A stretch of DNA of 40,029 nt from Caldisericota bacterium. GTDB lineage: Bacteria > Caldisericota > Caldisericia > UBA6126. Positions 4,082-9,392 of the stretch are shown here, piece by piece. Numbering within the stretch: the stretch's first letter is position 1; each line of letters starts with the position of its first letter. Location of the stretch: the NCBI GenBank assembly GCA_003566815.1, contig PXBT01000218.1, forward strand, positions 1 to 40,029, in the 5' to 3' direction. The position numbers were made by a program, and so were the translations under genes. The notes under the pieces are model-generated. The model was given only the letters and a program-made list of their open reading frames with translations, was not told the origin of the DNA and made no database searches.

Positions 4082-7081
4082 ATGAGCCAGACTTCAAACC
4101 ATTCTTTTGATGATATTTATACTGAAAAGTTTAAAAAATTAACCCCGCGGGTTATTCGAGAGGTTTTACTCGTTGCCAGTTTATACGACTCCTTTCTGTT
4201 GGAAGAGGATGGTCGTCTGGTGGATCTTCTTTTTCAGTCCTATTCCCAGAAAGGATATGGCTTTATTCCTGTTATCACCCGAGTAAACAGCTTTGAAGAA
4301 GCAGTAGAAAAACTTAAAGAAAGCAACTATCAGCTCATTATTGCAGTATTAAGAAAAAAAGACCAACATTTTGCAAGCCTGATTGGCGACATAAGAAAAG
4401 ATTATCCGCAAATACCTTTGGTGGGGCTTGCTTTTCACCAGGAAGACCTTGCTCCCTTCGGCGGAATTGAAGACAAAACCTTGATAGATCAGGCATTTTT
4501 ATGGCAGGGTGAAGGCAAAATCCTCCTCGGCATCATCCAGTATGTAGAGGATAAAATCAATGCTTTACATGATATCCAGCTTTTAAGTGTTCCTTGCTTG
4601 TTGCTCGTTGAAGACTCGGTTTCATTTTATTCCTCCTATTTCCATGTCATCGATGAAGCACTCTGGACTCAAATGGCTGCATCTTTCAGAGAAGATACCC
4701 CCTATATGACTCGAATACTCAGGTTGAAAGCACGACCAAAAATTCTCCTTGCCAATACATTTGAAGAAGGCATAGAATGTTATAAGCACTACAAACATCA
4801 CCTGATTGGCATTATCACCGATATCTGCTACCAAAGGTCAGGCAAGCTGGATCCCAAAGCAGGCATAGATTTTGCACAGATGTTCAGATTATCATTTCCA
4901 GATCTCCCCCTGGTCATCCAATCCAGTCAAAATGATGCTCAAGGCTTTGCGGATGAAATTGGGGCAGGATTTCTTGATAAAAACTCCAATACATTAATTA
5001 GTGATTTTAAAAAAATGCTCAATCAATATTTTGGTTTTGGCGAACTGGTCTTTCAAGCTTCAGAGGGAAAAGAAATTGCTCGCACCAATACAGTGGAAGG
5101 ATTGCTCAGCATTATGGATACTCTTCCTGCCGAAATCCTTCGAAAACAATATGATGGAAATGCCCTTAAAAGATGGCTTTGGGTTCGGGCTGAGTTTGAG
5201 CTGGCAGACCTTTTGTATGCAGATGATTTAAAAAAAGAAAAGCAACTTCATTTCTTTCGGCAAAAAGTCAAAGACACCATACAAGATTATTTGCACAATT
5301 CGAGACTGGGCACTTTGATACCTTTCAGCCGCAGAAGCAGTTACAGCTATTGGCATATCTCCAAGCTGGGAGAAGGATCCATTGGAGGTAAAGCTCGGGG
5401 ATTGGTCTTTATGGACAAAGCCCTGTCGCGATTCTTCCCAAAAGAAAGGTATCCTCAGTTTCAAGTGTCAATTCCTCGTACTTTAATTTTGGGCACTGAT
5501 ATTTTTGATGACTTTATCAAAAAAAATAATCTCTGGCCTTTCTGTGTAAATGAATCTTCCGACATGCAAATTGCTCATGCATTTTTAAAAGCAGAGCTCC
5601 CTGCAACAGTAATTGGAGATTTAAGAGACCTTGTGATTCACACGCGTAATCCTCTTGCGGTACGATCTTCAAGTTTGCTCGAAGATGCATTGTATCAACC
5701 TTTTGCAGGAATATATGCCACTAAAATGCTTCCCAACAATCAAGTGGATGTAAGTGGAAGATTTCAGCAGATAACCAATGCTATCAAATTGGTCTATGCC
5801 TCAGTGTACTTCAAGCAGGCAAAAAATTACATCGAAAGCACACATCATCGCATAGAGGAAGAAAAAATGGCGGTCATTATCCAGGAAGTCGTTGGAAGAG
5901 CCTGGGGTAATCATTTTTACCCCGTAATTTCTGGAGTTGCTCGATCCTACAACTACTACCCAACAGGCTATGGCAAGCCAGAAGATGGGGTGGCGCATTT
6001 AGCTTTTGGGCTTGGAAAAACTATTGTGGATGGAGGCACCAGCCTTCGCTTTGCTCCAAAATATCCCAAAATTATTCCACAATTCAACACCATTAATGAT
6101 ATGCTTAAAAACACCCAAAAAAATTTCTTTGCCATCAATATGAAGCCTATTTTCACCAAAGCCACTTCAGATGAAAACGAATATCTCCTAAACCTTGGGC
6201 TCAAAGAAGCTGAGCTTGATGGGTCTTTGGCAACCGTAGCCTCAACCTATTCATACCAACATGAACGCATTTTTGAGAACTTGCATGCCAAGGGACCTCG
6301 CATTATCACCTTTTCTTCTATTCTAAAATATGAACTCTTTCCTTTAGCGCCATTGCTGGAAGATCTGTTGAAGTTATGCGAAAGCAGTATGGGTAGTCCT
6401 GTAGAGATTGAATTTGCCTTGGACTACAACACGGAAAAAACAAATCATATTCATTTTGGTTTTTTGCAAGTCCGCCCCATGGTTTCAGCAGCAAGCTTTC
6501 ATTCCATCGATCTATCGTCTTTCCGCCGTGAAGATGCCCTTTGTTATAGCGATCAAGTGCTCGGCAATGGAATTATCAATGATATCCAACATATCGTTTA
6601 TGTAAATCCAGCTATTTTTGATGCGAGCAAAACGCGCGAAATAGCATTGGAAGTTGAAAAGATTAACGATTTCCTAAAAACCAATACCTCAAAATATTTG
6701 CTGATAGGTCCTGGTCGATGGGGCAGTTCTGACCCCTGGCTGGGAATACCCGTGCAATGGGGTCAGATTAGTGAAAGCAGGGCTATTATTGAAGCTAATC
6801 TTGAAAATATGATGGTGGATCCATCCCAGGGTTCACACTTTTTTCAAAATATTACTTCATTAGGCATTGGATATTTTACTGTCCCTTATAAAAATTCAGA
6901 ATCATTCATTGATTGGGACTGGCTATTGTCACGGAATATTCAAAAAAAATTAACTTATGTAACATGTGTGAAACTCGATCAACCCATGAGCATTCAAATG
7001 GATGGAAAAAACACCAAAGGCATCATTTTAAAAAGCTCTATTGAAAGGCAGGATAAATATGACCGAAAAAAAGATAGTTGA
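4082..7081 (+). CDS. PEP/pyruvate-binding (PPDK_N, ATP-grasp) domain protein with N-terminal receiver-like domains
   Basis: Start at ATG 4082 (GGAGAGCAAG upstream) rather than 4043. LLLVEDS...LIGIITD...VIQSS...GFLDK receiver-like signature; [56 protein letters not shown]...FLQVRPM; C-terminal [16 protein letters not shown] and QGSHFFQNI. Confidence 0.85.
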   Translation: MSQTSNHSFDDIYTEKFKKLTPRVIREVLLVASLYDSFLLEEDGRLVDLLFQSYSQKGYGFIPVITRVNSFEEAVEKLKESNYQLIIAVLRKKDQHFASLIGDIRKDYPQIPLVGLAFHQEDLAPFGGIEDKTLIDQAFLWQGEGKILLGIIQYVEDKINALHDIQLLSVPCLLLVEDSVSFYSSYFHVIDEALWTQMAASFREDTPYMTRILRLKARPKILLANTFEEGIECYKHYKHHLIGIITDICYQRSGKLDPKAGIDFAQMFRLSFPDLPLVIQSSQNDAQGFADEIGAGFLDKNSNTLISDFKKMLNQYFGFGELVFQASEGKEIARTNTVEGLLSIMDTLPAEILRKQYDGNALKRWLWVRAEFELADLLYADDLKKEKQLHFFRQKVKDTIQDYLHNSRLGTLIPFSRRSSYSYWHISKLGEGSIGGKARGLVFMDKALSRFFPKERYPQFQVSIPRTLILGTDIFDDFIKKNNLWPFCVNESSDMQIAHAFLKAELPATVIGDLRDLVIHTRNPLAVRSSSLLEDALYQPFAGIYATKMLPNNQVDVSGRFQQITNAIKLVYASVYFKQAKNYIESTHHRIEEEKMAVIIQEVVGRAWGNHFYPVISGVARSYNYYPTGYGKPEDGVAHLAFGLGKTIVDGGTSLRFAPKYPKIIPQFNTINDMLKNTQKNFFAINMKPIFTKATSDENEYLLNLGLKEAELDGSLATVASTYSYQHERIFENLHAKGPRIITFSSILKYELFPLAPLLEDLLKLCESSMGSPVEIEFALDYNTEKTNHIHFGFLQVRPMVSAASFHSIDLSSFRREDALCYSDQVLGNGIINDIQHIVYVNPAIFDASKTREIALEVEKINDFLKTNTSKYLLIGPGRWGSSDPWLGIPVQWGQISESRAIIEANLENMMVDPSQGSHFFQNITSLGIGYFTVPYKNSESFIDWDWLLSRNIQKKLTYVTCVKLDQPMSIQMDGKNTKGIILKSSIERQDKYDRKKDS

Positions 7082-9392: not shown

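Follow-up and report, generated by a model that had tools for sequence, protein, structure and literature searches.

Introduction

What is the function of two overlapping genes that resemble parts of a PEP synthase and lie in tandem between two glutamate dehydrogenases (GDHs)? The genes, here called A and B, are found in a stretch of 40,029 nucleotides from a Caldisericota bacterium (contig PXBT01000218.1), referred to below as the window. An initial annotation, made from the letters of the DNA, had described their products as an uncharacterised ATP-grasp phosphotransferase/ligase pair. Reversible inactivation of GDH has been reported in Bacteroides fragilis. Gut Bacteroides assimilate much of their ammonia by way of this enzyme, one of their main routes (PMC4539542). 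We argue here that A and B probably act as a hitherto unnoticed switch, driven by ATP, on the assimilation of ammonia in bacteria.

Organisation of the locus

All four genes of the locus are read on the forward strand. GDH1 (2066..3412; PF00208/PF02812) belongs to a subclade of glutamate dehydrogenases that accompanies B, its orthologues, 73-77% identical, adjoin A/B in relatives, and it falls in a clade with an insertion in the NAD-binding domain. It is followed by a terminator-like hairpin (GCGGGG..CCCCGC, then a T-run) at about 3440..3475, to which no strand is assigned. A (4082..7081, within an ORF at 4043-7081) likely starts at ATG 4082, with GGAGAGCAAG upstream as a plausible ribosome-binding site, and B (7059..9392, ORF 7041-9392) at ATG 7059, with AAAGGCAGGA upstream in the same role; from these likely starts the two genes overlap by exactly 23 nt (7059-7081), just as the initial annotation had it. 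Downstream, GDH2 (9470..10819, in an ORF open from TTG 9458) starts at ATG 9470 with GGAGG upstream and scores above the NCBIfam threshold for an NADP-specific glutamate dehydrogenase (NF006929), GDH1 being of a different subfamily. The 77 nt that follow B, up to the ATG of GDH2, showed no hairpin, and a strong terminator-like hairpin lies on the forward strand at 10850..10875; since hairpins bracket the unit and none separates B from GDH2, A, B and GDH2 are likely to form one transcription unit. We found no structured RNA in the window, and no histidine kinase adjoining A/B was seen there.

Directly after the GDH2 terminator come a class V aminotransferase (10986-12119) and a phosphoglycerate dehydrogenase-like gene (12137-13054), an order which is kept in two other genomes (G001 and G002) and which possibly serves serine synthesis. 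Further along, a 920-residue ORF (31896-34658) with no Pfam match at E 1e-6 comes after an FHA-domain protein (28913-30205) and a Cu-amine-oxidase-N-domain protein (30180-31889).

Two ATP-grasp proteins that are not PEP synthases

The PPDK_N-type core that had been noticed in both proteins is borne out by PF01326, the sole Pfam domain above cut-off in either A (E 7e-37) or B (E 2e-54), and the ATP site is intact in both. The ATP-grasp domain of A lies at 5378..6484 and that of B at 7656..8816, both on the forward strand; the ATP-site residues K450, R541, E547, E788, E790 and Q809 of A (numbered throughout from ORF position 4043) are kept in 87/87 relatives, and K210, R310, E316, D555, E557 and Q571 of B in 12/12. 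Profile searches with A matched rifampin phosphotransferase/PEP synthase at residues 466-610 (5hv6/5fbs, E 6e-8 to 3e-7). Identity with PEP synthase or PPDK is nevertheless ruled out, as the initial annotation had maintained: an HMM search gave neither PF00391 nor PF02896 in A or B, so that swivel and PEP-binding domains are absent from both, and the GGxTSHAA motif is missing as well.

The AlphaFold2 model of A (mean pLDDT 86, 87 relatives aligned) is consistent with this picture, placing a receiver-like domain, a second receiver, a helical linker that is DUF5752-like in some relatives, the ATP-grasp domain and, at the C-terminus, an alpha/beta domain in that order and, judged from the order of the elements, leaving no PEP-binding barrel. 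In a Foldseek search the model matched HpeI (9goj) over the ATP-grasp domain with E 1e-10 and PleD over the tandem receivers with E 3e-6. It also matches, at E 4e-10, the 365-residue BFVD entry G3MBK5 (Gp139 of Bacillus phage G), which is probably a stand-alone PPDK_N-type ATP-grasp. The model of B, whose product comprises a helical N-terminus, the ATP-grasp domain and a C-terminal domain of the A type, is of low confidence (pLDDT 72). The B relatives form one monophyletic clade (support 98-99, with 12 B rows in the tree); at one locus (L039 7870-10247, genome G053) B is spread over two ORFs with a 4 nt overlap midway through the ATP-grasp domain, which reflects either a genuine gene split or an assembly frameshift.

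A and B are alike beyond the ATP-grasp domain. Their profile-profile comparison reaches E 6e-57 over 566 columns, and orthologues of both proteins are present in many genomes; the pair is not a matter of chance. The C-terminal domain that they have in common occupies 6575..7078 in A, with the motifs GPGRWGS and GSHFFQ, and 8811..9389 in B, with GPGRWGS and SFGTHFFQ (forward strand); within the general forms GxGRWG and G[ST]HFF, the letters GRWG and HFF are invariant. The histidine is H932 in A (87/87 relatives) and H700 in B (12/12), in a motif that differs from the canonical T/SxxGGxxxH swivel motif. A 27-member profile of the domain found no relative in Pfam or the PDB, and the domain appears undescribed in the literature searched. 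Among the motifs that had been listed as shared, the core, LQVRP/PVDVEFA, GPGRWGS and GSHFFQ/GTHFFQ are present in the pair, but FAGKY occurs in B only, A having FAGIY at this place.

A tandem receiver at the N-terminus of A

The N-terminal part of A, of which the initial annotation made no mention, is a pair of receiver domains. The degenerate receiver-like domain 1 (residues ~40-181; 4160..4585, forward strand) is delineated by the AlphaFold2 secondary structure and by matches to response-regulator profiles (residues 44-163, E 3e-5 to 1e-3), and column counts show no Asp at its phospho-acceptor position. In receiver 2 (residues ~185-330; 4595..5032, forward strand), which is covered by the PleD tandem-receiver fold match, E190, D260, S/T294 and K313 are kept in 87/87 relatives and D191 in 82/87. 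The Pfam Response_reg match in A itself, at E 0.22, is below cut-off; one relative (L075) has a strong match (E 4e-13). By conservation and model together, A combines a pseudo-receiver with a receiver whose phospho-Asp site is intact.

A widespread family with signalling fusions

The family of A is large: at least 571 confirmed stretches in the genome collection hold a relative, mostly in Bacteroidota, Ignavibacteriota, Calditrichota, Acidobacteriota, Gemmatimonadota and other phyla. It is present in 52/61 evenly drawn Bacteroidales genomes, a 53rd having a weak receiver-like match only, and some genomes carry up to 3-4 copies. These relatives are already in the databases under generic names, as had been stated from the outset; the one from Parabacteroides distasonis (WP_041525632.1), for example, is named only "PEP/pyruvate-binding domain-containing protein". 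A search of the literature for the A/B family found no characterisation, and receiver control, the C-terminal domain and the link to GDH all appear undescribed in the papers covered.

A survey of gene neighbourhoods for conserved pairing, which had been suggested for this pair, shows that tight tandem pairs recur: A-B at 7 loci, a long A with an A at 12 and A-A at 3, with 6 more long-A/A pairs in a second sample and gaps mostly between -41 and +59 nt. Because such pairing recurs, the translational coupling and hetero-complex of A and B proposed by the initial annotation are plausible.

Further domains are added in some relatives. A long A (L118 6130-9942) has a PAS domain (E 4e-7) ahead of the receiver-like domains, another long A has a strong Response_reg match, and some relatives of B, the long B proteins, have an N-terminal extension that is GAF-like by eye, not by Pfam. 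A nucleotidyltransferase domain (PF01909, E 1e-8) is found at the C-terminus of long B proteins at L046 5098-8673, L050 1191-4370 and L075 1335-4523; it brings to mind the nucleotidyltransferases that control glutamine synthetase. To judge from their domain make-up, fusions with receiver, PAS and nucleotidyltransferase domains are typical of signalling proteins.

A mobile or phage origin was considered and rejected, as a scan of viral contigs with the B profile gave no relative and the plasmid matches are chromosome-like Bacteroidota records together with weak Deinococcus PPDK_N matches. Two records labelled as plasmids, NZ_OY725790.1 (Parabacteroides; L176) and NC_022111.1 (Prevotella; L177), look chromosomal and their label is doubtful: the former holds valine-tRNA ligase, ruvC and two GDHs, and the latter is 1.77 Mb long.

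Association with glutamate dehydrogenase

The pair is flanked by GDH1 upstream and GDH2 downstream, a feature that is likewise absent from the initial annotation, and its relatives keep similar company. Among 90 loci fetched by A/B similarity alone (one of which, L051, duplicates L035), 53 have a GDH neighbour, the next commonest neighbour family occurring 6 times. Of the 41 loci that have at least 5 kb of flank on both sides, 27 have a GDH no more than 5 kb from A/B and 14 lack one; of the 62 with at least 1.5 kb of flank, 38 have it within 1.5 kb, against 0/18 canonical PPDK/PEPS loci. These control loci were taken from the phylum of genome G056, a phylum too small to support such a test for A itself. 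On the assumption that a genome carries two to three GDHs, chance linkage would be about 1% per locus (binomial P <1e-20, related loci not being fully independent). In a second, independent and evenly drawn sample of Bacteroidales, GDH is within 1.5 kb in 14/40 A loci, and 26/40 have none within 5 kb.

The linked GDHs stand upstream or downstream on either strand, in four relative orientations and rearranged orders, and belong to different GDH subfamilies; the loci span more than 10 phyla, one "Alphaproteobacteria" MAG being possibly misbinned. In the annotated record of Parabacteroides distasonis, gdhA and A point away from each other and another GDH lies 3.4 kb away; in Phocaeicola massiliensis the arrangement is similar, one GDH being divergent from A and the other 3-4 kb off. 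The genomic association of A/B with GDH is thus conserved across phyla. Many genomes of the window's phylum have an NADP-type GDH but no A, and GDH therefore does not need A.

B is tied to one GDH in particular. The GDH1 subclade, defined at 73% identity or more, is complete in 14 of 54 surveyed genomes of the window's phylum and present as a fragment in one; B occurs in 12 of these 15 genomes, as opposed to 0/39 without the subclade. Two of the three genomes with GDH1 and no B (G049 and G052) have it at contig ends, and in the third (G005) the 14 kb contig around GDH1 has neither A nor B. One family (f6) has GDH1 and B, with A absent. The B-linked GDH1s of the window's phylum, of Fermentibacterota and of two Bacteroidetes MAGs form one clade in a tree (rows L163, L164 and L167, which look misread in the wrong frame, were disregarded). 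The distinctive insertion (VSCWDQEDQ, with extra residues later on) that marks their NAD-binding domain is present in 14/14 members, such as the window's own GDH1 and those at L034, L036, L037, L044, L046 and L075, versus 0/11 of the nearest other GDHs, and may alter cofactor use. Given that the presence of B tracks the GDH1 subclade and that the B-linked GDH1s are one clade, GDH1 is the partner that B accompanies; the partner of A is mainly the NADP-type GDH2.

A possible mechanism and its alternatives

The initial annotation was right that A and B are no PEP synthases and have an intact ATP site, but it did not see the regulatory module or the pathway. With the receivers and the GDH linkage added, its "uncharacterised phosphotransferase" is better described, more narrowly, as a signalling protein with a tie to glutamate dehydrogenase. 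We put at about even the chance that A and B are paralogous subunits of a signal-gated, two-component-controlled ATP-grasp phosphotransferase dedicated to adjusting GDH activity. A histidine kinase encoded elsewhere in the genome would phosphorylate D260 in receiver 2 of A, and phospho-D260 would switch the ATP-grasp domains of both proteins. These would hold ATP in the manner of PEP synthase or rifampin phosphotransferase and hand a phosphoryl group on to an acceptor while AMP and Pi leave. The first acceptor is perhaps the invariant C-terminal histidine (H932 in A, H700 in B), a candidate phospho-carrier because of the analogy with RPH and HpeHI; the basis is its conservation, the motif not being T/SxxGGxxxH. 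The end target would be the neighbouring glutamate dehydrogenase, with B acting on GDH1 and A on the NADP-type GDH2, and the activity or direction of the target could thereby be tuned to the supply of nitrogen and energy. Tentative, and in our estimate rather less probable than its opposite, is the full version, namely that a receiver-controlled heteromeric PPDK_N ATP-grasp covalently modifies GDH by way of a new C-terminal phospho-carrier domain (GxGRWG...G[ST]HFF) and that this explains a trans effect on Bacteroides GdhA.

A different use of the same parts, which we regard as unlikely, is that A/B act as a metabolic kinase or ligase activating a small molecule at the 2-oxoglutarate/glutamate node, the receivers merely controlling flux. 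To our knowledge all characterised PPDK_N proteins (PEPS, PPDK, RPH, phenylphosphate synthase/HpeHI and PigC) act on small molecules, and the other neighbours in the window, the aminotransferase and the phosphoglycerate dehydrogenase-like protein, are amino-acid enzymes; the nearest fold is that of HpeI (PMC12167813). The receiver, PAS and nucleotidyltransferase fusions, however, fit a regulator better, as does a recurring neighbour that is near-exclusively GDH, a complete enzyme, and A/B have no swivel or substrate-binding domain of known kind. Regulation might also work by ATP-sensing, non-covalent binding to GDH with no phosphotransfer: GarA is a precedent for control of GDH by binding, and a missing recognisable phosphohistidine domain together with the GDH linkage would suit such a mode, but the family, diverse as it is, keeps every one of the ATP-grasp catalytic residues, which points to catalysis and makes this quite improbable.

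Could the GDH linkage itself mislead, as a relic of an old operon or of co-regulation with nitrogen genes, with A/B serving a function unrelated to GDH? The 26 Bacteroidales loci without a nearby GDH and the 3-4 copies of A in some genomes speak for it, yet the linkage recurs with different GDH subfamilies in all four orientations and in rearranged orders, and B follows a single GDH subclade by presence and absence; we consider an unrelated function distinctly improbable. Hardly credible, finally, is the idea that A and B are halves of a PEP synthase which have diverged but go on making PEP with a swivel and PEP-binding domain borrowed from a separate protein. Homology to the PEPS/PPDK ATP-grasp and the existence of split dikinases (HpeHI) allow for it, but the source genome already has a canonical PPDK with an intact GGMTSHAAVVAR motif and a further PPDK_N homologue elsewhere, no PF00391 protein is among the window genes scanned with Pfam, and A/B have receivers and a conserved C-terminal domain of their own.

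A regulator of GDH acting by phosphotransfer, if true, would be a new way of controlling nitrogen assimilation at the post-translational level, shared by nearly all Bacteroidales and by many phyla besides. It would name the controlling protein family, make its mechanism testable, define a new C-terminal domain and establish the PPDK_N ATP-grasp as a new type of output in two-component signalling. The generic label "PEP/pyruvate-binding domain-containing protein" could then be replaced for a family present in 52/61 sampled Bacteroidales genomes.

Comparison with known systems

A trans-acting gene or genes downstream of gdhA in Bacteroides thetaiotaomicron reportedly affect GdhA activity (Baggio and Morrison, 1996). 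As reported, the gene(s) resemble A in lying near gdhA, and altering GDH activity in trans is the phenotype expected of A; identity with an A homologue is a lead only. In Parabacteroides and Phocaeicola, one GDH is divergent from A and another lies 3-4 kb away.

Like PEP synthase and PPDK (PF01326 + PF00391 + PF02896), A and B have an ATP-grasp with the ATP-site K, R, E/D and Q kept; unlike them, they lack the phosphohistidine swivel and the PEP barrel, both have a unique C-terminal domain, and A has N-terminal receivers. HpeHI has its ATP-grasp on a subunit of its own (PMC12167813). The ATP-grasp chain of A similarly has no swivel of its own, and HpeHI/phenylphosphate synthase (PDB 9goj) is its best fold match (E 1e-10). 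In contrast to HpeHI, which is linked to aromatic catabolism, A/B are linked to GDH, both carry an ATP-grasp, and no partner with a T/SxxGGxxxH motif is encoded nearby: no swivel-histidine subunit was found among the window genes scanned with Pfam, and the sole frequent neighbour family at related loci is GDH. The ATP-grasp of RPH loads a C-terminal histidine, which then delivers the phosphate (PMC4844700). RPH resembles A in its homologous ATP-grasp and has its carrier histidine near the C-terminus, but A/B have no rifampin-binding domain and their G[ST]HFF domain is not recognisably an RPH swivel.

In layout there is a parallel with PleD and PorX, which, like A, have a receiver-receiver or receiver-enzyme order in which one receiver has a phosphorylatable Asp and the output is an enzyme. 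We know of no described response regulator with a PPDK_N ATP-grasp as its output, and it is this output that sets A apart from both.
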